Below are positions 1,647-25,836 of a stretch of 25,836 nucleotides of DNA, piece by piece; position 1 is the stretch's first letter, and the number at the start of each line of letters is the position of its first letter. The notes below the pieces were generated by a model, which worked only from the letters and a program-made list of their open reading frames with translations, had not been told where the DNA came from and searched no databases. A program made the translations under genes and the position numbers. The stretch is from IMG/VR virus record IMGVR_UViG_3300036885_000028, positions 1-25,836 of that record. One strand, 5' to 3'. Source of the DNA: a virus.

Positions 1647-1662
1647 AGGTCTCACGAGCGAG

Positions 1663-1700: not shown

Positions 1701-1702
1701 TT

Positions 1703-2697: not shown

Positions 2698-3029
2698 GGC
2701 GCGGGAGCGACCGGGTTCTCAAGCTGAGCGCGAGCCACATCGGCGGACGCGGTTTTCACGTCAGTCCGCGATTGGACATACTTGTTCGCAGTCACCATAT
2801 GAACCACGAGCCCGCTGATGGTGACGATAGCGGTGGCGGCGATGCCGACCGGAGATGCGGCAGCGGTCACCCCGATGGCGGCAAGAACCACCTGAGCGAC
2901 AGTGCCAGCAAGACCAGCCCAGAAGCCAATCTGGCCGGTGAGGCCAGCGGACTTCGCCGTCTGATACTCGCTGGTCATATCGCCGGACTTGGCGATGGCC
3001 TCGATGATGGGAGTGGTGTTGATGTCCAT
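2694..3029 (-). CDS. Holin-like protein with two membrane helices (111 aa)
   Basis: The ATG at 3029 has an AGGAG Shine-Dalgarno; a longer upstream frame to 3194 has none. The product has a polar N-terminus, two hydrophobic segments (about residues 34-56 and 60-79, rich in Ala/Gly/Val) separated by a short SP turn, then a charged cytoplasmic tail with Ala-rich helix (DVKTASADVARAQLE). Size and topology fit a phage holin, and it sits between an XhlA-like protein and the phospholipase-like protein, overlapping the latter by 4 nt. The exact holin class is not clear. Confidence 0.65.
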   Translation of the reverse strand: MDINTTPIIEAIAKSGDMTSEYQTAKSAGLTGQIGFWAGLAGTVAQVVLAAIGVTAAASPVGIAATAIVTISGLVVHMVTANKYVQSRTDVKTASADVARAQLENPVAPAP

Positions 3030-3039
3030 GGTGAGTCTC

Positions 3040-3366
3040 CTACTTGGTTGAAATGTGAAGCCACGCGACGATGGCCACGACGACCACGCCGACGATGATA
3101 GGGTAGACGAGGTAGAGCAGACGATTGACCCTCGCAGCCTTGAGCTCGTCGATGTCTTTCTGCTGCGCCGTATCCTTGGCGACGAGCTGGGCAAACATCA
3201 CGTTGCCGTCACCTAGGGTGCGGCGGATGTCGTCCACGCCAGTCTGGAGAGTCTTCAGTTGGTTTGCGACGTGGCCGCGCACGATGTCAGCGACGTTGAA
3301 CATGTCGGACTCCAAGCGGGCAATCTTCTCGGCGTGTTTGCGGATCTCTTGGTCGGTGTCTGTCAC
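3040..3366 (-). CDS. XhlA-like coiled-coil holin partner (108 aa)
   Basis: It starts at GTG 3366, with GGAGGA a few bases upstream. The layout is that of the hemolysin XhlA family: a long N-terminal amphipathic coiled coil (residues about 5-80, EIRKHAEKIARLESDM... QQKDIDELKAARV) and one C-terminal membrane helix (83-103, LLYLVYPIIVGVVVVAIVAW). XhlA proteins act with a holin to permeabilise the membrane at lysis. It is transcribed directly before the holin-like gene, as in phage lysis cassettes. Confidence 0.65.
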   Translation of the reverse strand: MTDTDQEIRKHAEKIARLESDMFNVADIVRGHVANQLKTLQTGVDDIRRTLGDGNVMFAQLVAKDTAQQKDIDELKAARVNRLLYLVYPIIVGVVVVAIVAWLHISTK

Positions 3367-3367
3367 G

Positions 3368-4033
3368 TCATCCTCCGAATAGATCGTAGAGTCTGATGAG
3401 CGGGGGGTAGCCCCCGTTCTGGGTCACCATGAGAAGGCGGAAGTAGCGGTAGGCGGCTTCGGCTGCAAGAGTGATCTCCTCCACGCCGCCAGTCGTCGCC
3501 CATGTCGCAGGACTGCGGCTCACTTGGTTGTCCAGTTCATTTTGGGCGATACCATTGGGGGAGCCATAGAGTTTCCAGGCGACCGGGCCATAGTTGTAGG
3601 CTCCACCACTGACCTTTGCCCCGATGCGATACTTCGTGATGGTGCGAGTGGCACCGAAATCTATTTCAAGGTAAGTTCCTTCGGCTCCAATCCAATAGTC
3701 GTATGGGCCACCGTATGAGCGGGACAGTCCGTCGATTCCCTTCACCGGGGGGTAGTCTCCGCTCGCGGCATAGTCAGCGTTCGCTAGGATCGACGGCGAG
3801 AATGGAGAACCCCCGAGAAGAAGTTCATCGCTCCAGCTCGCCACCGTGACAACCCAGCCATTCCACAGCAACATATCTCGTAGGAGCCACGCCGAGCGGG
3901 TGTAGGATTGTTCCCACGCCCCGGCCTTCCCGACGAAGGCGACATCGACAGTCTTCCATGCTCCACCGAGGCCGACCTGGATCTTGGCCGGTGCCTCGTA
4001 CGCTCCTCCCAGACCTTTCCACAGTCCACTCAT
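3368..4033 (-). CDS. Tail fibre protein with discoidin-like domain (221 aa)
   Basis: The ATG at 4033 overlaps the upstream stop (ATGA). The N-terminus (MSGLWKGLGGAYEAPAKIQVG, about residues 1-35) resembles short Gly/Trp repeats of phage fibre shafts. Residues about 60-221 look like an F5/8 type C (discoidin) jelly roll, with strand motifs TYLEIDFGATRTITKYRI, VAWKLYGS and AAYRYFRLLM and a C-terminal IRLYDLFGG. These domains usually bind sugars, so host-surface binding is likely. It is the last tail gene before the lysis cassette. Confidence 0.6.
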   Translation of the reverse strand: MSGLWKGLGGAYEAPAKIQVGLGGAWKTVDVAFVGKAGAWEQSYTRSAWLLRDMLLWNGWVVTVASWSDELLLGGSPFSPSILANADYAASGDYPPVKGIDGLSRSYGGPYDYWIGAEGTYLEIDFGATRTITKYRIGAKVSGGAYNYGPVAWKLYGSPNGIAQNELDNQVSRSPATWATTGGVEEITLAAEAAYRYFRLLMVTQNGGYPPLIRLYDLFGG

Positions 4034-5345: not shown

Positions 5346-7247
5346 CTAGATGATCTTGTATCCACCGTCACCATTGGACATGGTTCCGGCGTTAGTTGTG
5401 ATGAAGCCGTAGCGGATACGCTGGGCCTCGGTGGCGAGAATGTAGTCAGGGATGTCTTCGGCGGGCTTGGTTCTGCTTGCGGTGTATTGGTCTTGGAGCC
5501 AAGATGGCACGTCGTGTTCTACTCCCCAGTAGTCGTGATAGTGCTCATACGCTGCCAAGCTCACTGGCGCGATGAAGCCATATCGCCCTTGGAAGTAGCT
5601 GTCCTGAAGTTCGTAGTGGAATACAGCTCCTAGGGATGTCTCAGTGACGGACAGGACCTGCATCTGATAAGGGATGCTCACGCCAGCCGCGTCTTGGAGG
5701 CACCGACTGCTGATGGTGACATTGTCCCCCGTCCAAAGAGCGGAGTCCTTGGCGTCCAAGTCCAGTTGCATGAACCGAGGATTGTTCCGATACTTGTTGA
5801 TCAGACGCGCCGTCAGCAAGTAGGCTTCTGGTAGATTGGCCTTGGCGAACCATCGGGAGAAGATCTCCTTGATGCGCTGCTCGCCATACTCGTCATCCCC
5901 TTCTGCGTCTGGGTCGATGCCCAGCTCTTGGCAGTCGTAGTTGTCTTTGCGATCGATGTCCAGTGTAGGATTGTGTTGTGCGAAGTAGACAAAGACTTCG
6001 CTGACACGCTGCGACGGATCGGTGGTAGTGCTGGGACTTCCAGCGAGGATGTTGTAATCTTCATTCAATGCCGTGATCTCGTTCCAAGCTGGAGGCTTGA
6101 TGGCTCGAAATCGTATGGTGGCCAACCGTTCGTCCCACCAGATGCAACAGAGGCATTGCTCCATGAGCTCGTTGAGAAGTGTCTGTGCCCCCTCTGGCTT
6201 GAAGAGCACGGCCGAAAGGGTATAGCCAGGAATCCACGTTGCGAATTCCAAAGCCCAGGCAGATGTCGTACTGCCGTAGGTGTGATCCGGAATCAGGGCA
6301 GGATTGATGAAGGAATAGGTGACAAGAAGTTCGTATATGATGTCGATGACCGGGACGTCTTGCCATACCTTGCAGATCTGCACCGCGTCGCCCGCCGAGT
6401 GCGCGACAGACACCGTATTGAAAGACCCATGGCTATAGATGGTGAGGACATCGCCAGTCCTCCCACTGATTTTCATGATTTCATTTCCTATGGCGACCCA
6501 TCCAGTCGTCGGGTAGGACTCCGAGTCCCCTATTCCCGCGGGGGACAAGGTCAGCGTAGAACCAAGGGCCGTAATGTCCGCCAGAAGAACCCCGGTGTTC
6601 GCAACCGGAACCTGAGTGCGCTGGTCATCTGCGAGCTTGAGCGGATCCTTGGCGGTGATGGTGACAACGCCAGCGTTGTCCGGGCCGTCGATCTTGTCGA
6701 CGACATATGTGCGCTTGTCAAAGTTCGCCGGGATGGCGACACCATCAACGAGGTATCCGGTGTAGACGTCGATGGTCCGATTCTGATAATACGGGTTCCG
6801 CGCCAGCCACTTGCCCCAATAGGTCCCTTGAGACATCACGATGCTCTTGTACGAGCGCGCGTCCCAGTAAGGGTCAACGTCGCGGTCAGCCCAGGCATGG
6901 TCCTGAAAGCGAATGGTGCAAGTGGCTCGCACTCCCAGACTCTTTCCTGGATCGATCTTGCTCGGGGCAAGCGAAACCGAAAGGACAGACGGTATAGACG
7001 TCGGCCATGTCGCATCCACAGGAGGCGGAAAGGTCCGATTGCTGAAAATGTGGTGGATCACAGATGAAGCGAAATGGGCAGGGTCCTGACAGGTCTTTCG
7101 TGTGTTGTAGCACTTGTCCGCTCCCGTCGTGGGGACCGCTGCCGTGCAAGGGCTTGTCCCGTAGACACGAGTGCATCGTGGAACCTGGAGGTCCACCACG
7201 ATGCACACATCGCGTCCTAAGGTCTTCTTAAGAACAGCGTAGGTCAT
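5346..7247 (-). CDS. Tail tip / baseplate hub protein with four-cysteine motif
   Basis: The start is ATG 7247, which overlaps the stop of the preceding gene (ATGA). An upstream in-frame GTG would overlap that gene by 70 nt. The 633-aa product has the order of lambda gpL-like tail tip proteins combined with a hub: an N-terminal cysteine group (C25-x8-C34 and C46-x6-C53), a beta-rich barrel (YVVDKIDGPDNAGVVTITAKD, partly), and a long alpha/beta hub region (YELLVTY, LNELMEQC, ARLINKYRNNPRF). The cysteine spacing resembles that of the Fe-S binding lambda gpL. It lies after the distal tail-like gene, as expected for a tail tip. Confidence 0.65.
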   Translation of the reverse strand: MTYAVLKKTLGRDVCIVVDLQVPRCTRVYGTSPCTAAVPTTGADKCYNTRKTCQDPAHFASSVIHHIFSNRTFPPPVDATWPTSIPSVLSVSLAPSKIDPGKSLGVRATCTIRFQDHAWADRDVDPYWDARSYKSIVMSQGTYWGKWLARNPYYQNRTIDVYTGYLVDGVAIPANFDKRTYVVDKIDGPDNAGVVTITAKDPLKLADDQRTQVPVANTGVLLADITALGSTLTLSPAGIGDSESYPTTGWVAIGNEIMKISGRTGDVLTIYSHGSFNTVSVAHSAGDAVQICKVWQDVPVIDIIYELLVTYSFINPALIPDHTYGSTTSAWALEFATWIPGYTLSAVLFKPEGAQTLLNELMEQCLCCIWWDERLATIRFRAIKPPAWNEITALNEDYNILAGSPSTTTDPSQRVSEVFVYFAQHNPTLDIDRKDNYDCQELGIDPDAEGDDEYGEQRIKEIFSRWFAKANLPEAYLLTARLINKYRNNPRFMQLDLDAKDSALWTGDNVTISSRCLQDAAGVSIPYQMQVLSVTETSLGAVFHYELQDSYFQGRYGFIAPVSLAAYEHYHDYWGVEHDVPSWLQDQYTASRTKPAEDIPDYILATEAQRIRYGFITTNAGTMSNGDGGYKII

Positions 7248-8038
7248 TCGGTGTTGCCTACAAAGGGGAGCCCCGCCGACATGAATCCTGCTCCGGGGAG
7301 GGTATTCTGGCAAGCCGGGATAGCCCCATCAGACCAGCAGAAGGTGGTTTCGGCTGGCCATGCGTCATGATTCCATTGGAGGAAGAATGGCCCCGGAGTC
7401 TCAGCATGGAGGATGAACGGCAGCCACGAGTTGCGGACCCATGCCTGAGAGAGCATGTCCATCGAGATGTTGCTCTTGATGCCCTTGCGAATCATAGTCC
7501 GACCGAGGAAGACTCCGTTCTGGCTGACCGAATTGGTCACCACCGTATTCCTTGCCACAATGGGAGGGGCGAACCCGACGAAGAAGCCCCGTTCGAAGAC
7601 GAGTGCCTTGCCAACAACCATCACGCCGATGAACGGCTTGGTTGAACTGTCCCCGGCTTCCACCAGGACTCGGAAATACCGCTTGATGACGGCAGTGAAC
7701 CTGAAGAAGTAGGGGCGGGACGCCGAGAGCGTGAAGACTCCCAGGCTGGTCCAGGAAGAATTGTCCGGCGAGTGCTGGAGTTCGATGGTGCCGTTGTGTT
7801 TCCACAGGTCTTGCGCGTAGATGGCGAAGTAGTCGAACTCTACCGGATTGCCGAAGTCCGCCTTGAGCCATGCCCCAGTCGCGCTGGACGGCTCCCAGAA
7901 CGTCGCAGGATTCCAATCATACGCATTCTCTTTCGGGTACAAGGCTTCGTCCCCCGACGACGTAATGGTGGCAGCCAGGAAGAGATTCTCATACCCGATT
8001 AGCGGTTTGAGCGGATCGCCAGGAGGAGATATGATCAT
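7244..8038 (-). CDS. Distal tail-like protein with discoidin-like domain (264 aa)
   Basis: The ATG at 8038 overlaps the tape measure stop (ATGA). Residues about 15-140 look like an F5/8C jelly roll (YDWNPATFWEPSSATGAWLK, FGNPVEFDYFAIYAQD, IKRYFRVLVE). Residues 140-264 are a beta-rich domain (RNTVVTNSVSQNGVFLGRT, WLPFILHAETPGPFFLQW) of the sort found in distal tail and tail-tip ring proteins. Its place between the tape measure and the tail tip is the usual slot of the distal tail protein. The carbohydrate-binding role of the first domain is inferred. Confidence 0.6.
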   Translation of the reverse strand: MIISPPGDPLKPLIGYENLFLAATITSSGDEALYPKENAYDWNPATFWEPSSATGAWLKADFGNPVEFDYFAIYAQDLWKHNGTIELQHSPDNSSWTSLGVFTLSASRPYFFRFTAVIKRYFRVLVEAGDSSTKPFIGVMVVGKALVFERGFFVGFAPPIVARNTVVTNSVSQNGVFLGRTMIRKGIKSNISMDMLSQAWVRNSWLPFILHAETPGPFFLQWNHDAWPAETTFCWSDGAIPACQNTLPGAGFMSAGLPFVGNTE

Positions 8039-10428
8039 GCGGTGGCCAACCTCGTTCCGTCTTGGAGCTGCTGATTGATGAGAGCCATGAGCTTTCGAAC
8101 ACCAGAGGAGTCCATGATAACATCGTTGGGGACAACGACGTTGATGGTGGGAGCCTGGGATGCCAGGGAGGATGATGTCTGCGGGTCAGTCGAGGGGAGC
8201 GCGGACATCCCTCCGCCCCCAGAGACAGAGCCTCCCCCGCCGAAGCTGGTTCCTGCGATGGTAGCGATCTGCACCGCTCCTGCGACTGCGACTGCCGCTG
8301 CCATGGCTGCCCCGACCCAAGGAGGGCCAGGGGTGTCCTTGTACGCTTTGACCACGGCGGCAGCGGTGTCGCAGATCGCCTGAGCCAGAGCGGCAGCCTT
8401 CCCAATCTCGAACATCTCACGGCTCTTCGTGTTCATTAGTGAAGCCATACTCCCCATCATAGACCCGAATAGCCCCGCCCGCTGGCTGAACGTCATCTTT
8501 TCCCACTCCAACTGCTTCTGGGCTTGAGTCTTTTCGATGTTCGCCAGCTTCACCTCGTGGTCTTGCTTCAACTGCTCCATGATGGCGTTCTGCTCTTCTT
8601 GTGCCGTCCGCTCCTTGGCGAACTTCTCCTTGAGGATGGCTTTGGACTTTTCGTACTTGGTATTCTCCGCATCAGTGAGGGCATTCAGGCTGCCCTTGTG
8701 GGCTTCCAACCAGACGTCCAAGTCGTTCTTGTCCTCCTGCGTGACTCCGAGTCGGATCTCTTCCAACTTGGCCGCGTGCTTGCGCGCAAAGTCTTCCTGG
8801 ATGGCATTCTGGTCAGCTTGATTCTTGGCTTGAGCATCCAGGTATTCTGAGTCAGAGACGGTGCCTGCCTTGTGGGCAGCATCCAGGTCCATGGTGATCT
8901 TTTGGTAGTGCTTCTTCGTATCAGCTTCCATCAGAGCGTAGTGCTCGTTTTCCACAAGCACCCGCTGATCGAGCCGTGCCTTGTGCTGCACCGACCATGC
9001 CTTCTCGATCTCAGCCTCCACGTCTAGCTCACCGGAGCCTCCTGCTCCTGGCTTCCCTTTGTTGGCGTCATCCTCAGCCTTCTTTTTCCGCTTGTCCTCG
9101 AACGCCTTGATGCGAGCCTCGATGACCCCCATCTGGGCCACGAACTCGGAACTCCAGGTCGTGCTGGTGAGAGCCTTCTGGACCCCTTCAGCCTTCTCGC
9201 GCAAGGAGTCCATGGTGGCATTGAGCTTCTCATCGAGGGGGTCGCCCTTGCGAGCAGCGAGCGCCATCGCATTGACCGACTCCTTCACCAGGAGAAGAGC
9301 TTCCTTCTTGGCATCACGCTCGATTTTCGCAGAGTTGATGCGGGCTTGATCACCGCTTTGCACGGCGATGACGAGTTGACTTTCGGCATGGTTCAACTCA
9401 GCATCGGCAGCGATCAGCTCCTTCGAGTAAGAAATGACAGCCCCGACGATAGCAACCTTCTTCGACAGGATGCTGGCGACCTTCTCCGCCGCTGCCTCCA
9501 GCAATCCCAACTCCAGGGAGAGGATACGGACAACGATCACAATTCCTTGGAAGGCATTGAGAACCGCTTTGATCACCGGGATCAGCGCCTGAATGGCGGG
9601 GCCAGCGATGCTGGAGATGCCACCGGAGTCGACGATGAAGTCCCGCAGGCTCTCCGCCACGGCTGCCAAGGGGGTCGCCAACTCCACCGCGATGCGGTTC
9701 CCTAGTCCTTCCAGGATATGGTGCAGATCACGGAACGCTTCCACCGAGGTACGGACACGCTCCGCGTCCACCGCGTTCACCGTCAGCCCAAACTTCTTGG
9801 CCTCTTCCGTGGCAGCCCGGATCCCCTCGCTGCCCTTCTCGAACATCGGAGCCAGGGCCATGCCCCCACGCCCGAACAGCTCCATCGTGACCTTGGTCTT
9901 CTCTGACTGTGAGCCGAGGTGGCTGATAGCGTCAGCGATGCGCCCGAACGCTTCGTCCGGCTTCAGGTCGCGGAGATCACGCGCATTGAGGCCCAGCTTA
10001 TAGAACGCCCCCTGAGCCTCGAAGATCTTCCCAGATGCATTCTCGATGGCACGCTCAAGACGCGTCACAGAGGAAACGATTGACTCCAGGCTGACTCCAA
10101 CAGCTTCCCCCGCTTCGCGCAGACCATAGAGGCTCTCAGCGGAAACCCCCAGTCGTGTGGACATCCGGTCCATCTGCAGGATGGCTTCCATGCTGCCCTG
10201 CACGAAGTTCTTGAATGCTTCAATGCTGAGGGTCACGCCGAGTGCCGCTGCCAGTTCGAGGACCGCTGCCTTCGCGTTCCCAACGGATGCCTGCACCCCA
10301 TTCAACGTGCTCTGGATGGCCGTGATGGACTGCTTCGTGTCAGCTTGGGCGGCATCCAGACTCGCCTTCAAGCCCGTGACGTCGGCGGTGAGCCTGAGGA
10401 CTAGTTGTTCGAGATCAGAATCACCCAC
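8035..10428 (-). CDS. Tape measure protein
   Basis: It starts at GTG 10428 after GGAAGG. The 797-aa protein is by far the longest of the tail genes. It has an N-terminal helical region (LRLTADVTGLKASLDAAQAD), a TP901-type tape measure core (FKNFVQGSMEAILQMDRMS, MELFGRGGMALAPMFEKG), and long Lys/Glu/Ala coiled coils (about 440-660). The end is Ala/Gly-rich with hydrophobic stretches (WVGAAMAAAVAVAGAVQIAT) followed by a GGGG linker, all typical of tape measures. It sets tail length and passes DNA at injection. It directly follows the tail chaperones, the standard siphophage order. Confidence 0.9.
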   Translation of the reverse strand: MGDSDLEQLVLRLTADVTGLKASLDAAQADTKQSITAIQSTLNGVQASVGNAKAAVLELAAALGVTLSIEAFKNFVQGSMEAILQMDRMSTRLGVSAESLYGLREAGEAVGVSLESIVSSVTRLERAIENASGKIFEAQGAFYKLGLNARDLRDLKPDEAFGRIADAISHLGSQSEKTKVTMELFGRGGMALAPMFEKGSEGIRAATEEAKKFGLTVNAVDAERVRTSVEAFRDLHHILEGLGNRIAVELATPLAAVAESLRDFIVDSGGISSIAGPAIQALIPVIKAVLNAFQGIVIVVRILSLELGLLEAAAEKVASILSKKVAIVGAVISYSKELIAADAELNHAESQLVIAVQSGDQARINSAKIERDAKKEALLLVKESVNAMALAARKGDPLDEKLNATMDSLREKAEGVQKALTSTTWSSEFVAQMGVIEARIKAFEDKRKKKAEDDANKGKPGAGGSGELDVEAEIEKAWSVQHKARLDQRVLVENEHYALMEADTKKHYQKITMDLDAAHKAGTVSDSEYLDAQAKNQADQNAIQEDFARKHAAKLEEIRLGVTQEDKNDLDVWLEAHKGSLNALTDAENTKYEKSKAILKEKFAKERTAQEEQNAIMEQLKQDHEVKLANIEKTQAQKQLEWEKMTFSQRAGLFGSMMGSMASLMNTKSREMFEIGKAAALAQAICDTAAAVVKAYKDTPGPPWVGAAMAAAVAVAGAVQIATIAGTSFGGGGSVSGGGGMSALPSTDPQTSSSLASQAPTINVVVPNDVIMDSSGVRKLMALINQQLQDGTRLATA

Positions 10429-10672
10429 GGGCTTCCTTCCTTAGCTGTTCATCAAGCTGTTCCCTGAGAGTCCCCACATCCTCCTCGCCTAGACCACCTG
10501 ATTTCATGCGCTCTTTACGCTTGCCATACTTCCATGACCAGAACTCCCACCACTCCAGAGGGGACAGAGCCCAGGCATCACCCGGGGGTATCCCCCACTC
10601 GCACACGGACATGGACACATACCCGAGCCAATCGGTCCGCGGCGGCAGACTCAGCCTGTCGCCGCTGCTCCG
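10421..10672 (-). CDS. Tail assembly chaperone, frameshift extension (gpT-like)
   Basis: This is the -1 frame continuation of the upstream chaperone. The frame is open, without a ribosome binding site, from the slippery site at 10672-10678. The conserved part begins before any good start codon (TDWLGYVSMSVCEWGIPPGD) and continues WALSPLEWWEFWSWKYGK, like GTA and lambda-type second tail chaperones with their Trp-rich helix. The only candidate starts (GTG 10618, ATG 10612) lack a Shine-Dalgarno. The fused product would be about 198 aa (115 + 83). It overlaps the tape measure start by 8 nt. Such fusions bind the tape measure and bring tube subunits to it. Confidence 0.8.
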   Translation of the reverse strand, partial: RSSGDRLSLPPRTDWLGYVSMSVCEWGIPPGDAWALSPLEWWEFWSWKYGKRKERMKSGGLGEEDVGTLREQLDEQLRKEARG

Positions 10673-10678
10673 TTTGGG
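10639..10678 (-). promoter_or_regulatory. Programmed -1 ribosomal frameshift signal
   Basis: On the minus strand the zero frame reads CTC CCA AAC, giving the slippery heptamer C-CCA-AAC (10678-10672), an exact X-XXY-YYZ pattern. After a 6-nt spacer (10671-10666) there is a 10-bp hairpin with one A-C mismatch (10665-10656 pairing with 10648-10639). Its 7-nt loop holds the zero-frame TGA stop. The -1 frame is open through the second chaperone. All three elements of a standard -1 frameshift site are in place. Confidence 0.9.
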
Positions 10679-11016
10679 AGGTCTTCCTTGTCCCTCTCGC
10701 CGTTCCCGGCCCTGATGGAATCCGTGAGGAGGGTCACCAGAGCCGGGAGGGCAGCGAGATAACCATTCTCGAAGAGCAGCTTCCCTGCCTCATCGAGTGA
10801 CAGGTTCTCCCCTGCCTCCGTGGCGAACGCGGACAGCATGAGAGCGACGTCTCGGATGCGGATGTCGGACTTCTTCACCCGCATGGCGATGAGAAGGACC
10901 GACGTCCCGAGGGCTTCCTCGACGGCACACAAGGAAGCGAAAGACGCCTTCAAGCGGATCTTTCGCCCCCCGATGAACGCCTCGGATTCCCCTCTGGCTT
11001 TGAGCGGTGTGCTCAT
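10651..11016 (-). CDS. Tail assembly chaperone (gpG-like)
   Basis: The ATG at 11016 follows AGGAG. The 121-aa product resembles the GTA gp10-like tail chaperones: IGGRKIRLKASFASLCAVEE at about 16-35, DVALMLSAFATEAG at 56-69, and a Leu/Ala-rich helix (GYLAALPALVTLL) at 85-97. It sits between the tail tube and the tape measure, the fixed position of this gene. Near its end it carries a -1 frameshift signal, so two products are expected: this short form in excess and a longer fusion. Confidence 0.85.
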   Translation of the reverse strand: MSTPLKARGESEAFIGGRKIRLKASFASLCAVEEALGTSVLLIAMRVKKSDIRIRDVALMLSAFATEAGENLSLDEAGKLLFENGYLAALPALVTLLTDSIRAGNGERDKEDLPNGAAATG

Positions 11017-11050
11017 GAGAAACTCCTAGGACGGGTGTGGATGGACGGAA

Positions 11051-11461
11051 TCAGGTGTTCACGTAGGTGATGTCCCCGGCGCTGGACAGCTTGAAGGAGT
11101 AGGTGATCTCCTTCTGGTAATCGCCGGCCTTGTCGAAGGACGCGACCAAGAAAGCACCGGTCGCGGTGTTCCCCAGGCTGTCCGTTATCCGGAAGTTCTT
11201 GATGTTGCCGACCTGGGCATACCCCACCATCTGCTTGACGGTGGCGTCGTCCGTGAAGACACCGGCAGCGGTGACCTCCAGGGTGCGCTCGCCGCCTTCG
11301 ATGAGCTTGCGGAAGGTGGTCCCGTCTTTGTTGGTCACATCGAGGGCTGCGGTCGCCCCTGCCTGTGACAACGTCCTGCACGCTGCGAGCGTGACGTAGG
11401 TGTTGGGCACCGTCGCACTCTCGATCTGCAGGAGGAAGGTTTTGCCGACTGGGAATGTCAT
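11051..11461 (-). CDS. Major tail tube protein
   Basis: The start is ATG 11461 (MTFPVGKTFLLQIES), with GGAG upstream; a longer frame runs back into the previous gene. The 136-aa protein resembles the TP901-1 type major tail protein family: an initial GKTFLLQIE strand, TLSQAGATAALDVTNKDGTT (about 30-49), the conserved core LEVTAAGVFTDDATV, and an end of the SFKLSSAGDI type. It polymerises into the tail tube. It lies between the tail terminator and tail chaperone genes, as expected. Confidence 0.85.
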   Translation of the reverse strand: MTFPVGKTFLLQIESATVPNTYVTLAACRTLSQAGATAALDVTNKDGTTFRKLIEGGERTLEVTAAGVFTDDATVKQMVGYAQVGNIKNFRITDSLGNTATGAFLVASFDKAGDYQKEITYSFKLSSAGDITYVNT

Positions 11462-11462
11462 G

Positions 11463-11882
11463 TCATGTCTCCATGGTTTGGATGTGGAACTTGAGAACAC
11501 CATGAAGCGTCTGCCCGTCTGGGTCGCGCATCACGGTCTGGAAAGAAAGCCGACAGACGTAGCATACACCTGAAGGAAGCTTGAGTTGCTGGCCATGAAT
11601 CATCGAGCAGACGGCTGCCTGGATTTTCATAACCTCTTCGTTGCTGCGCTGACGAGACCATGCGTGGATGGTGATTTCTCCGTCGTAGCCCTCTGCCGTC
11701 TTGCATCCGCCATCCCCCCAGGTGTGCTCGCCGATATGGACGAACGGGAACACGAGCGTGCCCAACTCTTGAGGCACGTAGTCGTAGACTCGCTTGTCGA
11801 TCAGCGACGTGAGCACCGTGTCCTTCGTGAAGAGTCCGAAGAGCGCCTTCTGCACGTCTAGGGGGATGCGGCTGGCGGACAT
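11463..11882 (-). CDS. Tail terminator / tail completion protein (DUF3168-like)
   Basis: The start is ATG 11882 (MSASRIPLDVQKALF); the upstream extension overlaps the neighbouring gene in another frame. The 139-aa protein matches the DUF3168 pattern: LIDKRVYDYVPQELGTLVFP (about 27-46), a GDGGCKTAEGYDGEITIHAW strand (about 56-75), an EEVMKIQAAV helix and a final RDPDGQTLHGVLKFHIQ. These proteins cap the tail tube and join it to the head. It directly precedes the major tail tube gene. Confidence 0.75.
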   Translation of the reverse strand: MSASRIPLDVQKALFGLFTKDTVLTSLIDKRVYDYVPQELGTLVFPFVHIGEHTWGDGGCKTAEGYDGEITIHAWSRQRSNEEVMKIQAAVCSMIHGQQLKLPSGVCYVCRLSFQTVMRDPDGQTLHGVLKFHIQTMET

Positions 11883-11886
11883 ATGT

Positions 11887-12255
11887 CTAGTTCGGATTCG
11901 AGGTGAACTCGACCACCATGATGGTGATGTCCGTCTGGATGCTGGTCGTGAGATTGACCGCGCCGGACGCATCATTGTAGATGCTCGGAGGGAACGGCCC
12001 AATGAGCTTCTCGGCCCCACCGGCCACAGCGATGACCCGGTCCGTGACCGTGAGACCGTCCGGCGTGCTCGCGGTGCTGCCAGTGGGCAAGGCATCGATG
12101 GTGACGTTGAGGGAGGGCGAACCAGCATTCTTGACCAGGAGGAATTGCTTTCCGTTGTTCTGGAAGGTGTTCCCCGAAGCCGAAGGGAGCGTGCCTGCGA
12201 CGAGCAGTCCCGTGTTGACGATGGGTGAGGGGGCGGGGAGTGCGACTGCGGTCAT
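11887..12255 (-). CDS. Small beta-rich virion protein, decoration-like (122 aa)
   Basis: The ATG at 12255 follows AAGGAG with a 7-nt gap. The product is an all-beta protein with NNGKQFLLVKNAGSPSLNVT (about 33-52), TVTDRVIAVAGGAEKLIGPF (about 69-88), IYNDASGAVNL, and a Thr/Val-rich end. I know this pattern from small phage proteins near head-tail genes, usually annotated hypothetical; the beta-sandwich and conserved AEKLIGPFPP turn suggest an exposed capsid or tail decoration. It lies between the HK97 gp10-like and tail terminator genes. The function is inferred. Confidence 0.55.
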   Translation of the reverse strand: MTAVALPAPSPIVNTGLLVAGTLPSASGNTFQNNGKQFLLVKNAGSPSLNVTIDALPTGSTASTPDGLTVTDRVIAVAGGAEKLIGPFPPSIYNDASGAVNLTTSIQTDITIMVVEFTSNPN

Positions 12256-12276
12256 ATGAGTCTCCTTCTGGGAGGG

Positions 12277-12717
12277 TTAGGATTCGTTCCAAGCGTGCTT
12301 GAGTTCTTCGAGCGCCGAGGGGAGATACTTGTGGTAAGCGGGACTGAGGAAGGGGCGAGCAGCCATATGAAGCGTGCCGAATTCCAGGGCGGGAGCGTAG
12401 TCAGCCTTCGCAATGACGCAGACTTCGCCTTTGCCCTTATCCATGGTGATTTGAATGTGGCTGGCGAGATATCCGGTGTCACTGGCGGGGGCCTCACCGG
12501 GGGCAGACGCCTGATGCTCCTTGTACTGAGTTTCCCCCCGACGATTCTTCATGACGGACCCGTCTTTGCGATGACGTGCGTTCTGGTACACGACCCCCGA
12601 CTTAGGACCGTGGAGGATGGAAATCACGGCCTCGCGCTGGATGTTGATTGCCAGACGAGCCATGGCTGCGAAGACTGCCTTCTTGGCGCGGTCATTGAGG
12701 CGGTCGAATGCGCTCAT
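12277..12717 (-). CDS. HK97 gp10-like head-tail/tail completion protein
   Basis: The start is ATG 12717 (MSAFDRLNDRAKKAVFAAMA), overlapping the upstream stop as ATGA. The 146-aa protein has the HK97 gp10 family pattern: an N-terminal basic helix, SAPGEAPASDTGYLASHIQI (about 72-91), and the conserved YAPALEFGTLHMAARPFL (about 109-126) with a final helical segment. The family acts in connecting head and tail. It follows the stopper-like gene and precedes a decoration-like gene and the tail terminator. Confidence 0.8.
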   Translation of the reverse strand: MSAFDRLNDRAKKAVFAAMARLAINIQREAVISILHGPKSGVVYQNARHRKDGSVMKNRRGETQYKEHQASAPGEAPASDTGYLASHIQITMDKGKGEVCVIAKADYAPALEFGTLHMAARPFLSPAYHKYLPSALEELKHAWNES

Positions 12718-13070
12718 GTCGCGACCCCCTCTTCGCAGGTGATCAGCATGTAAGCACCTCGCTCCTCGATATTGTGCATATCGCGAACATTGAAGATGTG
12801 TCCTTCTGGGGTGATGAGCCGATGCGCGGCATCCAATCGCTTGTCCCAGCGAGCGGTGATGTTGATGGTGCAATGGGATTGGACGCGTTGAGCATTGATC
12901 TGCTCCCCGCCCCCACCATACTTCACGTCCCCCCAGATCTTCCAAGCTTCATCGACCCAAGTGGGCACCTGCCCACCCGAGTCGTTTGACACCATCACGC
13001 ATCGCTGCACCCTGAAGGGAGTGCGGAAACGCGAAGGGATGCATTTGGGGGAACGCGAAGCAACGGCCAT
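12714..13070 (-). CDS. Head-tail joining (stopper-like) protein
   Basis: The ATG at 13070 shares one base with the upstream stop (TGATG); a TTG three bases upstream is less likely. The 118-aa product resembles SPP1 gp16-like head-tail stoppers: a beta core with WVDEAWKIWGDVKYGGGGEQ (about 38-57), TINITARWDKRLDAAHRLI (partly), and INVRD-like final strands (HIFNVRDMHNIEERGAYMLI). Stoppers form a ring under the adaptor that closes the portal. Position after the adaptor supports this. Confidence 0.7.
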   Translation of the reverse strand: MAVASRSPKCIPSRFRTPFRVQRCVMVSNDSGGQVPTWVDEAWKIWGDVKYGGGGEQINAQRVQSHCTINITARWDKRLDAAHRLITPEGHIFNVRDMHNIEERGAYMLITCEEGVAT

Positions 13071-13744
13071 CAATAGGTCCTCTCACGATCGTCGCGGATG
13101 GCGCGCGTCCCAGGGCGCATGACCATGAACTGCCGAAGGAAGGAGTAAGCACCGGATTCGTGGACTGCCACGTCGTCCGCCTCGCCCCGATTGGCATATA
13201 GATGGGCGATTAGCATCAGGATGGCCACCCGGATTTCTGCGGGGACTGCCCCGTTCTCGTATCCGGCTTTGAACAAGATTTCCACCGCATCCGCGCGCCG
13301 AAGGTTGACGGGCCAGATGGCCCCGATGTTCAGGCAAATTCGTCCAGGGATGTTAGGGTCGGCCTTCTCCAGGAAGTAGTTCGTTGACGCGAACACGAGC
13401 CGAGTGTTAGTTAGGTCGTACGAGGCCACCTCAGTGACCGAAATCGTAGGAGCCATGGCCAGATCGATCGCGCGCCTCTGGTAGCTGGCCAGAGCACCGT
13501 CCACTTCGCCGTCCCACCAGGGCATCCGCATCCCAGGGAACGCGTCCAGCGCGAGCACGACATCTTGCTTGGGGATGGCTCGCCGCGTCAGACGTTCGAA
13601 GAGGGAACGGGCAGCCGTGATGAGCGTGCCGATGTAGACATCGTCTTCCGCATGGGTGACGCGCAAGTGGCTCTTGACTTCGGCCAGGGTGACGGGTTCC
13701 AGGGAGCCAGCGACCAAGGCTGTCGTGATGCGTTCGATGGACAT
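13070..13744 (-). CDS. Head-tail adaptor protein (HK97 gp6-like)
   Basis: The ATG at 13744 starts MSIERITTALVAGSLEPVTL. The 224-aa protein opens with the adaptor pattern EPVTLAEVKSHLRV...DDVYIGTLITAARSLFERLT (about 16-53), then a beta hairpin region and a helical end (VPAEIRVAILMLIAHLYANR), as in the phage head-tail connector family of HK97 gp6 and related proteins. These form a 12-fold ring on the portal. It is followed directly by the stopper, sharing one base. Confidence 0.8.
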   Translation of the reverse strand: MSIERITTALVAGSLEPVTLAEVKSHLRVTHAEDDVYIGTLITAARSLFERLTRRAIPKQDVVLALDAFPGMRMPWWDGEVDGALASYQRRAIDLAMAPTISVTEVASYDLTNTRLVFASTNYFLEKADPNIPGRICLNIGAIWPVNLRRADAVEILFKAGYENGAVPAEIRVAILMLIAHLYANRGEADDVAVHESGAYSFLRQFMVMRPGTRAIRDDRERTY

Positions 13745-19263: not shown

Positions 19264-20127
19264 TCAGTTGCCATACGTCTTGGAAAAGTGTAAGCTGGCC
19301 ATCTCGTGGTGTTTGCCAGCTTCATTATGCAGTTCGATTAATGGGCCATGTGCAGCGTTGTTGGGATCAAGGGCATTAACAGCACGAAAATGAGCTTGAG
19401 CTGCGTCCCCATGCGCCTGGGCTAAGCCATGCAAGTATTGAAAAGTGTGTGGGATATTTTGAGCTCGCTTCGATGCACTGACCGCAGCAGCTGAGACTCG
19501 GCTCAAATGCTTACCATTGAACTTCTCGGTCACCTCATGCGACAACCTGGAGTACTGTGTGCCCGCCTCTATTGTATTCGGCTTGGCACTGCCACCTTCT
19601 CCTGATGCGAACCGCCCACGTTCGTCGTGGTTCGGGTTGAACTTCTTCTCCAGAGCCTCCACCTTCTCCACGCACGACTTCAGCTCCGAAACGGCACCAT
19701 CGGCCTTCTTGGCAGATTTTGCCGCGACCTCGTGAGCAAAAGCCGCTGCTCGATGAGCGCCTGCCGCATCAAGATGCAACGATGCGGCTTCCTTGGAAGG
19801 AGCAAAAGCGGTTGACTTTTCTCCGTTTGATTCGGCGGCTCCAAGATGCTCTTTGGCCGCTTCCTCGTGAGCTTTGGCTGCGTCGGTGTGCGCGGACGCG
19901 GTATCCCACTCGTCCGCATTATGAGTCGCGAGATTTGCCACTCGGCTTTTCTCGTCCGCTTTGTTGGAGTGATCCTGAGCTCCGGTGGGGTTTTGCACCG
20001 TCCAGGCATCTGCGCGCTCTCCGAGGGTGTTCCAAGAGGCTTTCTTGGCACTCTTGCTGATCTCCCTGGCGTTGGAACTCTGGCTATGGGCAAAGCGTCC
20101 GTGATCATCGTGGTTGTCGTTGCTCAT
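19264..20127 (-). CDS. Double-unit GRFASG-leader protein with Ala/His-rich helices (287 aa)
   Basis: The ATG at 20127 has AAGGA upstream. The protein contains two leader cores: NHDDHGRFAHSQ (residues 5-16) and NPNHDERGRFASGEGG (about 164-179). The second is preceded by SELKSCVEKVEALEKKF, the same helix that starts the single-unit relatives at 22295-22585 and 20173-20556. After each leader comes an Ala/His-rich helical body (HTDAAKAHEEAAKEHLGAAE; LHGLAQAHGDAAQAHFRAV). It therefore looks like two units fused in frame. The second body (19264-19560) has lower GC than its surroundings. Role unknown; position among head genes suggests a virion or assembly role. Confidence 0.7.
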   Translation of the reverse strand: MSNDNHDDHGRFAHSQSSNAREISKSAKKASWNTLGERADAWTVQNPTGAQDHSNKADEKSRVANLATHNADEWDTASAHTDAAKAHEEAAKEHLGAAESNGEKSTAFAPSKEAASLHLDAAGAHRAAAFAHEVAAKSAKKADGAVSELKSCVEKVEALEKKFNPNHDERGRFASGEGGSAKPNTIEAGTQYSRLSHEVTEKFNGKHLSRVSAAAVSASKRAQNIPHTFQYLHGLAQAHGDAAQAHFRAVNALDPNNAAHGPLIELHNEAGKHHEMASLHFSKTYGN

Positions 20128-20165: not shown

Positions 20166-20176
20166 ATCTTGCTCAT
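20138..20176 (-). pseudogene. Remnant of a duplicated spike base gene (12 codons)
   Basis: An open frame ATG(20176) to TAA(20138) encodes MSKIATGIKALY. Its last eight residues equal the C-terminus of the spike base protein encoded at 20567-20848. Its start overlaps the 20173 stop as ATGA. The sequence around the ATG (20174-20194) also matches the junction between portal end and spike base start (18 of 21 bases, 20846-20866). It is best read as an internally deleted copy of the spike base gene left by tandem duplication. A functional peptide is unlikely. Confidence 0.7.
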
Positions 20177-20556
20177 GGGTTATCCTTTGCCGTACCTGCG
20201 CGTGCATCATGGTAGGCAGCTTTAGAATCATGGTTCATAGCCGCAAACTCGTGACTTTGAGCCTGTGCGAGTTTCGTTGCACTAGGGTTTATGGTGTATT
20301 CCTTTGTGAGTCGCGAAGATGCGGTACGATGTGCTTGAGCAGCAATCCGTTGTAATATAGCTGCCTTTTCATTCTCTCCGCGTGTGCCAATAATAATCGC
20401 TTTGTCGCGCGCCATATCTGCCTTGGACGAAGCCATATAAGCGGCCGAACTAGCTTCTCCACCGGACGCGAAGCGACCGTTCTCGTCGTGGTTCTCGTTC
20501 ATCTTGAGCTCCAGCTTCTCCAGCTTGTCCGCAGCTGCTTTGATGCCGTTGTCCAT
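20173..20556 (-). CDS. GRFASG-leader small protein with helical body (127 aa)
   Basis: The ATG at 20556 follows AAGGGAC. Residues 1-33 form the family leader: a charged helix (KAAADKLEKLELKM) followed by NENHDENGRFASGGE. The remainder is an Ala/His/Ser-rich helical body (IAAQAHRTASSRL, KLAQAQSHEFAAMNHDSKAA) of lower GC than neighbours. The leader DNA is nearly identical to that of the 22295-22585 gene (a shared exact 35-mer). It lies between the spike base gene and its remnant copy. Function unknown; possibly an internal or accessory head protein. Confidence 0.65.
   Translation of the reverse strand: MDNGIKAAADKLEKLELKMNENHDENGRFASGGEASSAAYMASSKADMARDKAIIIGTRGENEKAAILQRIAAQAHRTASSRLTKEYTINPSATKLAQAQSHEFAAMNHDSKAAYHDARAGTAKDNP
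20481..20515. repeat. 35-bp exact repeat in leader-family genes (other copy 22510-22544)
   Basis: 20481-20515 and 22510-22544 are identical over 35 bp, and after two mismatches the match continues for about 12 bp more. Both lie in the sequence encoding the conserved leader (LELKMNENHDE). The bodies downstream are unrelated at DNA level. This points to recent copying or recombination limited to the leader. Confidence 0.85.
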
Positions 20557-22294: not shown

Positions 22295-22585
22295 TCAATG
22301 TCCGCTTGCAAGCTGGAAGTGTTCTACAGCTTTTCCACGATGATAGAATGCTGCATCTGAGTTTCCCATCTTGGCATGAGCTTTTGCTGCTGCTCTATGG
22401 GCCCATGAGGCTGCGGCATGGTCAGTTCGTTTGTTTGTTTTACTAGCCTGTTCTGAAAGTTTTTCTGCTTTAGCTGATAAACTTGATCCTCCTGCGCTAA
22501 ACCGACCTCTCTCGTCGTGGTTCTCGTTCATCTTGAGCTCCAGCGCCTCCAGCTTGTCTATGGCCGACTTGAGTTCATCGCTCAT
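22295..22585 (-). CDS. GRFSAGG-leader small protein with helical body (96 aa)
   Basis: The ATG at 22585 overlaps the terminase stop (ATGA). The leader (residues 1-33) is SDELKSAIDKLEALELKM followed by NENHDERGRFSAGG, nearly identical at DNA level to the 20173-20556 gene. The body is Ala/His/Lys-rich and helical (DHAAASWAHRAAAKAHAKMG, DAAFYHRGKAVEHF). The body DNA (about 22310-22500) is around 45% GC on three-line counts, below the portal and terminase 3' parts on either side. It is wedged between terminase and portal. The function is unknown. Confidence 0.65.
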   Translation of the reverse strand: MSDELKSAIDKLEALELKMNENHDERGRFSAGGSSLSAKAEKLSEQASKTNKRTDHAAASWAHRAAAKAHAKMGNSDAAFYHRGKAVEHFQLASGH

Positions 22586-23970
22586 GTGATCCTCGGGGTT
22601 GCAGTTTGGAGGAGGACACCCGCAGCACCATCGGCCGCGTCGATCTGGTCGTCGTGGTAGCCGGTCGGGGTGTCAACCTGGTCCTCATCGACGAACGCTT
22701 CGGCCTCATCCAGGAAGGCCTCATTCCACGCGCCGCGCACAAGCTTGACGTTCCCGACCTCGGCTGCGGCAGAGAGCGGACCGGAGCGTGTCCACTTGCT
22801 GCCGGTCGGCTTGACCCAATGCGGAGCATACTCGGCAAGGGCTGTGCTCAGGTGCTGCTTTTCCACTTGGCCTGCTTGCGCGGGGTCTTCCTCGAGCCAG
22901 AGCTCGGTCGTATCCCCATCCTGGGAAGCGGTGTTCTGTAACATCGCTTGCACACCGAGCGGACGCATGCGATCGCGGCGCATGTCCACGATGTAGAGCA
23001 GCCCTGTTCTTGAGCGGTAGACCCGAGCACCGGCGGTATGATCCGGATCGGGGTTCGCGTCCGAGGGAATAGTCGAGGCACGATCCCAATAGCGTACCAT
23101 CCGACCACCGTCGCGCGGGTAATCGGCAACGATCTCGAACCACAAACGTTTGAAGCGCATGCCACCCTCTGGTCGCACGCGCCAGTTGCCACCCAGCAGA
23201 ATCTCGCGCTCGTAGAGCGGGAGCGCCATGAGATTTGCGCGATATGCTGGGTCACCAATGTTCAATGCAGGATTGTCTTCAAGCTTGGCAGAAATAAATG
23301 TGAACGAGCGCGGCATGTTTGGTTGCCCGGTCTCATCCTTCTGCGGAAGTTCTTCTTTGGAATCAGCCCAAAGAATCTTATTTCCTTGCCGTACAAACCA
23401 TCTAACGGCACCAGACCGTTCCTTGATCGGGTAACCATCAGCACCTATCCACCACTCGATCAACTTTTCTACCCATGAACCGGGTTCTGGGTTACATGTG
23501 GCACGAACATATGGGCGCACGCCACAAAGTGACCTATTGCGTGATAAAAGATACCAGAATTGAGACTCAGAGAAATGTGTAAGTTCATCCCAAAGGATAA
23601 GCGGCAATGCACTGCCTTGCCATGAGAACTTGTCAGCTTCATATTGCAAGTGGCTAAAGCGTACGCGTGCTCCTGAGGGGAACTCAAACGAGAGCCCAGT
23701 CTCATTTACTTTTGCACCAAGCGGTCGATATAACTCATTAGCCACATCGAACAAACCACCAAGTTGCTTGATCTGAGGGTATGTCCGCCGAAAGACAATA
23801 GCTGAGAAATTAGGAATGTCTACATAGTGCAATGGTTCAAGCAAAAGTGCAAAGCTCTTTCCGCCTCCGGCCGAACCTCCATAAACTGCAATATCACAGT
23901 CACAAGCTGCAAACTGTGCTTGTGGCCCCTTCTGTGGGGCAATCTGCTCTAACGTTGCGGAAGGGCTCAC
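22582..23970 (-). CDS. Terminase large subunit
   Basis: It starts at GTG 23970, overlapping the upstream stop as GTGA. The 462-aa protein has the ATPase motifs YGGSAGGGKSF (Walker A, 31-39) and LPLILWDEL (Walker B, 122-130), with CNPEPGSW (159-166) at the coupling region. The nuclease part shows YWDRAS (294-299), EED (360-362) and HDDQIDAADG (439-448) for metal-binding acids. It packages DNA into the prohead and cuts it. GC content drops from about two-thirds in the nuclease half to about half in the ATPase half, with a change near 23230, at residue about 247. Confidence 0.95.
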   Translation of the reverse strand: MSPSATLEQIAPQKGPQAQFAACDCDIAVYGGSAGGGKSFALLLEPLHYVDIPNFSAIVFRRTYPQIKQLGGLFDVANELYRPLGAKVNETGLSFEFPSGARVRFSHLQYEADKFSWQGSALPLILWDELTHFSESQFWYLLSRNRSLCGVRPYVRATCNPEPGSWVEKLIEWWIGADGYPIKERSGAVRWFVRQGNKILWADSKEELPQKDETGQPNMPRSFTFISAKLEDNPALNIGDPAYRANLMALPLYEREILLGGNWRVRPEGGMRFKRLWFEIVADYPRDGGRMVRYWDRASTIPSDANPDPDHTAGARVYRSRTGLLYIVDMRRDRMRPLGVQAMLQNTASQDGDTTELWLEEDPAQAGQVEKQHLSTALAEYAPHWVKPTGSKWTRSGPLSAAAEVGNVKLVRGAWNEAFLDEAEAFVDEDQVDTPTGYHDDQIDAADGAAGVLLQTATPRIT

Positions 23971-24611
23971 TTAGAACCCACCTTTTTGGCAAGGCGTCCA
24001 TTGGCAGGTAGCACAATCACTCGTCCAGCTAAACTTTCTCCCTCGGTATCGGTTAGCTCTAGTGTTTGTATACGTGGATACGTGTATGGAAGAATTGACT
24101 CGGTGGACTTCTGTCTGAGGCTCGGTGGAATAAGCTGAAGAGCTATATCGTGCCCCGAGGGAAGCTCTACTCGGGCACCTCCGATGTCCACTATTCTTTT
24201 CGGAGCGTCGTATTCCTCTTGAGTCATGAACCCCAGAGCCACGGCATCCCCACGTGCGAAGCGGGTCAGAGTCTCTACTGGATCGAACTTCAACTTCTGC
24301 AGTAGCTCGAAGACATGCCGAACCCGTGCTCGGTTCCCTCCGCATGTGCCGCGATCCTTGGGTGGTTGACAGTCCTGGAAAACAGGAGCTCTTGAGAGCG
24401 CTCTGATTTCCTGACCTCCGTTCGCCGTTGAGAAGCCTACTATTTTGGCCACAGTCCTTGCTGGGTCCGCACTGCCACCGCTTTTTTTTGGGTGCAGGGA
24501 CGATAACTTTTGGGACTGAGACTTCCGAGATATTCTCACGAGCGCTAGTATGACATGTCTTTTCCCAATGTCAACTAAAACTTCGCCATAGGATACGGTT
24601 GAGGTATACAC
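23967..24611 (-). CDS. Terminase small subunit-like protein (start uncertain)
   Basis: The stop overlaps the terminase GTG (GTGA). The C-terminal half shows the TerS-like pattern: KFDPVETLTRFARGDAVALG (about 108-127), then LRQKSTESILPYTYPRIQTL (about 165-184), which is the Ala/Leu-x-Tyr-x-Tyr-Pro end of many phage small terminases. The N-terminus is unclear: GTG 24611 has a poorly placed AAAGGG, and a TTGACA-type promoter lies inside the first 25 codons. GTG 24539 (190 aa) is an alternative. An A8 tract at about codon 42 is a possible slippage or sequencing-error site. It should bind the packaging site and load TerL. Confidence 0.65.
   Translation of the reverse strand: MYTSTVSYGEVLVDIGKRHVILALVRISRKSQSQKLSSLHPKKSGGSADPARTVAKIVGFSTANGGQEIRALSRAPVFQDCQPPKDRGTCGGNRARVRHVFELLQKLKFDPVETLTRFARGDAVALGFMTQEEYDAPKRIVDIGGARVELPSGHDIALQLIPPSLRQKSTESILPYTYPRIQTLELTDTEGESLAGRVIVLPANGRLAKKVGSK
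24547..24574 (-). promoter_or_regulatory. Possible sigma70-type promoter before terminase genes
   Basis: On the minus strand a perfect TTGACA (24574-24569) is followed after 16 nt by CATACT (24552-24547, 4/6 match to the -10 consensus). It could start the head operon transcript near 24540, very close to the in-frame GTG 24539. The -10 is weak, so confidence is modest. Confidence 0.4.
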
Positions 24612-24658
24612 ACCCTTTTAGCTACTGCCTCCCATAATCATTACCAAAGGGGATAGCC

Positions 24659-24967
24659 ATGGATTTCGATGAAGAAGAATATGCAACTCTGCTGGCAATG
24701 AAAGAGCATGGAGAACTGATAAACCGCGAAGACCTCTTCCGATTTCACTTATTGCAAAAACTAAAATCAAAGATGCCTAGAACCCAATCTATTCCAGGAG
24801 AAGCAAAACGTCGTGCCGCAAAAAGGTGGAGGCAAAAATATCCGGACAAAGTTCGAGCCAATGCAGCGCGCCACTATGCCGCGCATCCGGAGCTGCAAAA
24901 AGCTGCCAATGCAAGATGGCGCACTAAAAAGAAGAATCGCAAAGTTCGATTCGTCTTTCATAAATAG
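24659..24967 (+). CDS. Small basic protein with HNH-associated-type repeats (102 aa)
   Basis: The ATG follows AAAGGGG. The product starts acidic (MDFDEEEYATLLAMKEHGEL) and ends strongly basic. Residues about 48-97 show repeats of the kind WRQKYPDKVRANAARHY and AHPELQKAANARWRTKKKN, like the NP-KV-A/Y-R repeats often found before or after HNH nucleases in phages, but no HNH motif follows. The gene is AT-richer than the structural operon and runs against it. It probably binds DNA or RNA. A CATAAT box at 24633-24638 may be its -10. It may be an inserted accessory (moron-like) gene. Confidence 0.65.
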   Translation: MDFDEEEYATLLAMKEHGELINREDLFRFHLLQKLKSKMPRTQSIPGEAKRRAAKRWRQKYPDKVRANAARHYAAHPELQKAANARWRTKKKNRKVRFVFHK

Positions 24968-25109
24968 TTATAAGGGGTTCCATTCATAAAGCTACCCCAT
25001 ATACCTATACTATATCTTATCTTTTTTTCACGTTTTACCTTATTAATGCAGAACCTAAAACACCCTCTATAGGTATATAGGGCACGCTTACGAATGAAAC
25101 CCCCTATAA
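24968..25109 (-). ncRNA. Candidate structured RNA: 42-bp inverted repeat with 58-nt loop
   Basis: The arms 24968-25009 and 25068-25109 are inverted copies matching at 34 of 42 positions without gaps. Of the eight differences, six become G-U pairs in minus-strand RNA (only A-C mismatches in plus-strand RNA), leaving two true mismatches. The loop (25010-25067) contains a nested stem (GTTTTA 25032-25037 with TAAAAC 25056-25061, extended by two G-U pairs). There is no U-run after the minus-strand 3' arm, so it is not a plain terminator. It could be an RNase III processing site, a small RNA, or as DNA a packaging or origin site. Confidence 0.55.
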
Positions 25110-25342
25110 TCGGTTCCCACCACGCCTACCCCCTACGGAATACCAATCTTGGTAACCGTCGGAACGATACCCCGCGACACCCATCACGTCTTACAGCTCC
25201 AGAGCAAGATGGTCGCGCGTGGGTCTCGCGCGTGCACGAGTCGAACTCTCCAGAAGCAAAGCAACACGCACGACATCCCCAAGGCGGTACAACTTGGACC
25301 GCGTAGCATCCTGGTGGGGCTTCTCTCCAATTCAATACGGAA
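25110..25342. other. Non-coding stretch, possible packaging-site region
   Basis: I see no convincing gene here. It contains a 9-bp direct repeat TCGCGCGTG (25213-25221 and 25226-25234, period 13). It also has small competing stems: GCGGT/ACCGC (25284-25288 with 25298-25302) or CCAAG/CTTGG (25279-25283 with 25293-25297), within an outer CCCCA/TGGGG pair. With the inverted repeat on its left it forms the only long intergenic gap upstream of the terminase genes, which is where cos or pac sites usually lie. That role is inferred. Confidence 0.35.
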
Positions 25343-25573
25343 TTAGAATGGCGGTTCATCGCTAAGCTCAAGACCTTGCGGCTCATGCTTCAAGATTGCC
25401 CATTGGATCAATTTGTCGACATTACGCTCAAGCCTGGCTATTTGCGAGTCATGCTCCATTATTGCATCTGCCGCTCTCAAGACTAGATCTTCTGCCTCCT
25501 CCTTTCGCTTTGCCATACGCTCGGCAATTCGGTTCATGGCCACGCCAGGATTTCCGGTCCGTTTGATCTTCAT
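25343..25573 (-). CDS. Small coiled-coil protein (76 aa)
   Basis: The ATG at 25573 overlaps the upstream stop (ATGA) and has GGAG six bases upstream. The product is basic at its start (MKIKRTGNPG) and then a long amphipathic helix (RIAERMAKRKEEAEDLVLRA, DSQIARLERNVDKLIQWAIL) that probably forms a coiled coil, with an acidic end. No family is recognised. It is translationally coupled to the winged-helix-like protein upstream. Confidence 0.65.
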   Translation of the reverse strand: MKIKRTGNPGVAMNRIAERMAKRKEEAEDLVLRAADAIMEHDSQIARLERNVDKLIQWAILKHEPQGLELSDEPPF

Positions 25574-25821
25574 ACTCCGCTCCTGGCATGATACACCGCC
25601 ACGCGTCGCTTCCGACCATCCGCACTTACGCGTCGTTCGTACCGTACTTCCACCAATTCAGGATGGAAATGGGCGAACTTCGCCGCACCTGCCTTGCTAT
25701 ACCGAACCGCCGCTCGGATCTCGCTGGCAGTCGCACCATCAGGCCTTGACCTCAAGAATGCCAGTATAGGGTGCGAAATAGGTTCCCCTCTATACTTGGA
25801 AAAGCATCCTTTTACCGTCAT
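25570..25821 (-). CDS. Small winged-helix-like DNA-binding protein (83 aa)
   Basis: The ATG at 25821 has AAAGG upstream. Residues about 17-50 look like a helix-turn-helix (ISHPILAFLRSRPDGATASE, then IRAAVRYSKAGAAKFAHF), and the end forms a likely wing of two basic strands (VEVRYERRVSADGRKRRVAV). It may be a small regulator or DNA-binding packaging or replication helper. It is coupled to the following coiled-coil gene. The family is not recognised. Confidence 0.65.
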   Translation of the reverse strand: MTVKGCFSKYRGEPISHPILAFLRSRPDGATASEIRAAVRYSKAGAAKFAHFHPELVEVRYERRVSADGRKRRVAVYHARSGV

Positions 25822-25836
25822 TTTCGCCTTTACCGG

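Follow-up and report, generated by a model that had tools for sequence, protein, structure and literature searches.

An inverted word upstream of terminase genes in several unrelated phage lineages, a candidate packaging site

The window, by which we mean the whole stretch of 25,836 nucleotides analysed here, is a 25.8-kb viral record obtained from environmental sequence. Its minus strand carries the genes of the head, which encode the terminase large subunit, the portal, the prohead protease and the capsid. The gene of the terminase large subunit (22582-23970, minus) matches Terminase_6N/6C and phrog_979. Its start is overlapped by a second minus-strand gene (23967-24611), which we predict from its position only to encode the terminase small subunit. 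A family search with this protein returned no match, and neither of two small proteins encoded upstream of other terminases was similar to it. On the opposite strand, a gene of 102 aa (24659-24967, plus), for which our searches found no family and no relative, ends one base before the left arm of a long inverted repeat. The far side of the repeat is occupied by a gene of 76 aa with no convincing family (25343-25573, minus) and, at the window edge, by a small gene (25570-25836, minus) with a weak MarR-type match below the cut-off. Beside the repeat, TCGCGCGTG is present in two direct copies 13 bp apart (25213-25234). Within the head region, three small proteins (19264-20127, 20173-20556 and 22295-22585, all minus) have in common an N-terminal stretch of the NENHDERGRFA type, with pieces that are 44.7% and 69% identical.

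The repeat is made of two 42-nt arms (left, 24968-25009, plus; right, 25068-25109, minus) around an AT-rich spacer, or loop, of 58 nt (25010-25067, no strand). An earlier sequence-only reading of this DNA had described the same geometry, and recomputation agrees with it: the arms are complementary at 34 of 42 positions (81%) without gaps, and the left arm starts at 24968, directly 3' of the stop of the 24659 gene (TAG, 24965-24967). Its count of the eight differences is also reproduced. Six of them place A opposite C on the plus strand, i.e. G-T on the minus strand and G-U in RNA, such that all six transitions stay paired in minus-strand RNA only. The other two are adjacent (24991-24992 versus 25085-25086) and a one-base slip re-pairs both in the fold. 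The ungapped inverted-repeat score of 18 is far beyond chance, since no dinucleotide shuffle scored above 13, whether of the 2.3-kb region (60 shuffles) or of the whole window (10 shuffles), and the window contains no second inverted repeat of this class. Each arm holds an outer box that reads inward, TATAAGGGG on the left (24969-24977, plus) and TATAGGGGG on the right (25100-25108, minus). The pair spans 140 bp (24969-25108), and the same pair of boxes is found ahead of terminase genes in other lineages. The two boxes of the window are unlike each other, with A in the left one and G in the right one. The repeat does lie upstream of the terminase operon, as had been claimed, but with the opposite-strand gene (24659-24967, plus) in between. 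A promoter-like TTGACA-16-CATACT also falls within the frame of the predicted small subunit (24574-24547, minus). If the true start of the small subunit is further downstream, the terminase operon might be transcribed from a promoter of its own, past the hairpin.

We scanned viral contigs for two forms of the outer word, TATARGGGGTT..AACCCCYTATA and TATARGGGGT..ACCCCYTATA; taken together, the scans covered spans of 115-176 bp. Three scans gave 11, 16 (11 of them repeated from the first) and 5 loci, for a total of 21 distinct loci. In 15 of the 21 the word lies directly upstream of a terminase gene, 32-262 bp away from it; the window, too, has the word upstream of its terminase genes. Counting by lineage, a terminase-adjacent word is found in four of nine unrelated lineages, which corresponds to p~2e-5 to 6e-4 under our own assumption that 2-5% of a phage genome qualifies as "just upstream of terminase". 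The inverted word is recurrent before terminase in several unrelated lineages. In the terminase-adjacent lineages the outer box ends are 119-158 bp apart, and in all four the paired boxes of one locus carry the same A or G. Beyond the word, the arms differ from lineage to lineage. L024-L027, which are closest to the window by terminase, lack the word, and the box pair, even with one mismatch allowed, is absent from 13 of 13 phage-record loci (L113 and L158-L169).

A single phage superfamily accounts for 12 of the 15 terminase-adjacent loci (L142-L148, L150, L151, L154, L155 and L157). Its small and large subunit genes stand apart, and the repeat stays beside the small subunit. In L146 the word (8532-8653) is followed by the small-subunit gene (PF03592, 8758-9351), and in L154 the word (7714-7852) is next to a small-subunit gene on the minus strand (7020-7682). 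L155 and L157 are arranged like L154, and the remaining members align with L146 across the repeat stretch. Inside the superfamily repeat (e.g. L146, 8560-8570), TTCCGTCGCGC is unchanged from the L142 group to the L154 group, whereas the spacer flanking it differs. The L142 group might correspond to the HMO-2011-type phages, which are the subject of PMC9038755. The three other terminase-adjacent loci are L149, L156 and L174. The word of L174 (781-938) precedes a small subunit (1200-1595) and a large subunit (1659-3002), and that of L156 (1593-1711) precedes a large subunit (1934-3586). In L149, where all features are on the minus strand, the word (13378-13506) is followed by a small-subunit-like gene (12744-13148) and by a large subunit (10623-12353) that is a distant relative of the one in the window (36%); hardly any arm extends past the word, and the score of 11 is not above shuffles. 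The other six word loci belong to five lineages. Four of them have the word inside open frames (L152, L153, L176 and L178, the last two being the same sequence), and L175 has it away from terminase and with no arm extension. The sixth, L177 (12975-13140; L183, 5175-5340), has TATATAAGGGGTCAACGCGCTCGAGA as a perfect inverted repeat of 26 nt, placed between two genes of the structural region and far from terminase.

In L063/L064 (arms starting with TTATA, span 159), L032 (span 118) and the phage DSL-LC04 (span 203), a long inverted repeat likewise stands before a small-subunit-like gene; the "small subunit" of L063/L064 and L032 is called by position only. We compared 16 gaps with 40 shuffles each, the above-shuffle set being largely pre-selected. 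Nine were above all shuffles: the window, L146, L154, L156, L174, L064, L032, DSL-LC04 and a 3.5-kb Rhizobium phage stretch, the latter by one point (12 versus 11). The other seven were not (HTVC023P, HTVC027P, 023Pt_psg01, Pag-Yong1, CRP-901, the Methanoculleus virus L4768 and L149). A motif-free scan of 80 terminase loci in 19 clusters showed upstream inverted repeats in few lineages, namely L032, L063/L064 and, marginally, L046. The same scan picked up repeats elsewhere in L041/L042/L047, two in L046, and one common to eleven loci of one cluster. In one phage locus, L031, we observed two similar 24-nt hairpins of terminator-like size with GTTAACATCCGCATAAGC (2424-2479 and 3132-3183).

We tentatively favour the interpretation that the repeat is a paired terminase-proximal DNA site, i.e. 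a packaging signal of the cos or pac type, and would place it somewhat below an even chance. DNA packaging would start when the terminase small subunit, or a partner, binds two TATA(A/G)GGGG boxes that face each other 120-160 bp apart directly upstream of the terminase genes. Cleavage would then occur nearby and be linked to the genome ends. A DNA role, for instance as a packaging site, had been a secondary suggestion of the sequence-only reading, and it is backed over an RNA role by the position of the repeat: as for cos and pac sites, the terminase small-subunit gene is adjacent, with 357 bp from the arm to the predicted gene in the window. Against a packaging site, the word is missing from L024-L027 and its box pair from the 13 phage-record loci named above, the word also occurs with good arms far from terminase in L177, the boxes of the window are unmatched (A left, G right), and a late promoter or operator would equally sit upstream of the terminase operon. 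Our literature searches returned no paper joining inverted repeats, pac site and terminase small subunit.

One may go further and propose that the boxes are terminase nick sites, one on each strand, and that fill-in duplicates the 120-160 bp between them, which would then bound a short direct terminal repeat. Terminal repeats of 81-540 bp are listed in PMC3896407, and models of their duplication involve nicking, according to PMC4281155. We nevertheless find this nick-site form improbable because such boxes are missing from four phages whose repeats are known: the direct-terminal-repeat boundaries of T7 (160 bp), T3 (231 bp), SU10 (193 bp) and LUZ24 (184 bp), which served as positive control, lack both the word and any clear inverted symmetry.

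The boxes might instead form a DNA site in the gap before terminase that controls the late operon, as a pair of operators or promoters would, or that serves as an origin of replication. In L146, L064 and L156 the genes flanking the gap with the repeat point in opposite directions, and in the lineages found the gap adjoins the first terminase gene. By our reading of the alignment of the L142 group, TTGAAT, 17 nt and TATAGG can be made out in both arms of L146, an arrangement resembling a sigma-70 promoter, but L154 and L174 lack this spacing in our reading. Moreover, mutually facing boxes are unusual for promoters, and a promoter scan of the window found no excess. We regard a control site as possible, if on the unlikely side.

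The primary proposal of the sequence-only reading was selection for RNA pairing in the minus transcript, where the hairpin would act as an RNase III site, a small RNA or a leader controlling the head operon. The minus-strand RNA of the repeat indeed has a very stable fold (-63.5 kcal/mol, z -9.4), and the expectation that it would be clearly lower in energy than the plus strand (-36.3 kcal/mol, z -5.5) was correct. Yet this difference in energy is the G-U count in another form, not independent evidence. The odds of "about 1 in 64" that had been attached to the six transitions are arithmetically right, but they become 1 in 32 in a two-sided test and were chosen after the fact. The nested stem that had been described within the loop is present in the fold, but it is weak and the minimum-energy and centroid folds disagree. 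Four-fold sites have more C than G on the coding strand, and a simple genome-wide C-to-T bias therefore does not explain the six transitions; locally, however, the minus strand has G over C, which leaves room for a local mutational bias. The 24659 gene separates the repeat from terminase, and hence a hairpin-bearing minus transcript would run antisense through this gene first. Rfam gave only sub-threshold, hairpin-like microRNA matches to the repeat (best MIR6136, 35.2 bits versus a gathering threshold of 99), and we rejected a microRNA-like identity given scores so far below gathering. A terminator scan of 24300-25836 found three terminator-like sites, and the repeat is not among them. Searches of the literature found no paper joining RNase III, long hairpin and terminase, and none joining G-U pair, inverted repeat and phage genome.

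We folded the repeats of 17 loci on the terminase-sense and antisense strands. The window strongly prefers the sense strand, but the preference is not common: the L142 group folds better antisense by 8-17 kcal/mol in all seven loci folded, L156 does so by 9 kcal/mol, and the remaining eight loci differ by less than 6 kcal/mol. Covariation was assessed in the L142 group, with nine sequences, seven of them distinct, in a shallow alignment that is not homologous to the window arms. Among its 44 pairs, 35 never vary, five are broken in some members, three are unpaired in all and one shows a both-sided change. Covariation as high as observed was reached in 301 of 500 shuffles of this alignment. Both boxes are invariant, and three positions just outside them break. 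This pattern of variation is more in keeping with putative DNA boxes recognised by their sequence than with a conserved stem. The RNA reading was thus correct as to the minus-strand fold and the G-U count in the window, but selection for RNA pairing is unsupported across lineages, since strand preference is varied and arm changes in the L142 group are mostly uncompensated. We consider a structured RNA unlikely.

A small MITE-like mobile element inserted after the 24659 gene, or a functionless repeat, is very improbable: complementarity of the arms ends sharply, the repeat is AT-rich relative to its surroundings and TATA, which flanks it at either outer end, may represent a target duplication, but the window contig holds no second copy, the whole hairpin had no match better than E 1 among 50,697 phage and 72,556 plasmid records, and the multi-copy hairpins found in the genomes of L106 and L108 do not end in the word. 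The latter were rejected as kin of the window repeat for this reason. In L106 (1595-1763) and its Gemmataceae genome G001, a nested palindromic hairpin starting with TTTACCCCGAAGGGGTTG recurs, the genome having dozens of copies. L108 (2775-2906), with the 1.1-Mb genome G002, shows 3-4 copies of a near-perfect hairpin of ~120 bp, with a conserved core and an outer stem that varies from copy to copy. In a Planctomycetota genome, L109 (4305-4472) has a GC-rich palindromic unit around GCGGGGTTGCATTAGCG in tandem copies. A mobile-element family defined by the pattern GGGGTTNCATT..AATGNAACCCC was discarded, its two viral and seven genome loci being around chance by our own arithmetic, and the hairpins in bacterial genomes that match the arm-end pattern are unrelated to the window repeat. 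The one-arm pattern gave 20 loci, in which the second arm is not visible in the blastn listing and printed contexts. Syntenic relatives sought through the terminase large subunit reached at best 51% identity, with neighbour genes not in common, and those sought through the small subunit or the 24659 protein yielded none of use.

To our knowledge, the packaging sites of most phages are unknown, as they have no obvious sequence signature. If the inverted boxes are truly a packaging signal, such sites would become predictable from sequence across unrelated environmental phages, and the prediction would be directly testable. If the nick-site form is true, the box pair would mark both ends of the terminal repeat, which could be read straight from the genome sequence. 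If they are a late-operon control site instead, they would still be a regulatory signal common to unrelated phages.

The repeat shares traits with several known systems. Like hairpins processed by RNase III and intrinsic terminators, it is a long stem between genes that is stable on one strand; unlike them, it has a 58-nt loop, is not terminator-like in the scan and has a strand preference that varies among lineages. MITEs and REP-type bacterial repeats are also inverted repeats of 100-200 bp between genes, whereas the window repeat is single-copy and has no relatives with the same arms. The short direct terminal repeats of T7-type phages are similar in length to the 119-158 bp spanned by the box pairs, but their known boundaries differ in word and symmetry, as described above. 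The cos and pac sites of tailed phages, such as cosB/cosN of lambda and pacL-pacR of SPP1, are non-coding, lie beside the terminase small-subunit gene and contain repeated recognition boxes. The candidate packaging site of the window is likewise non-coding, adjoins a predicted small-subunit gene and has repeated boxes. Unlike in those sites, the putative recognition boxes here are two in number, inverted and facing inward at 120-160 bp from each other, and they often come with long arms.
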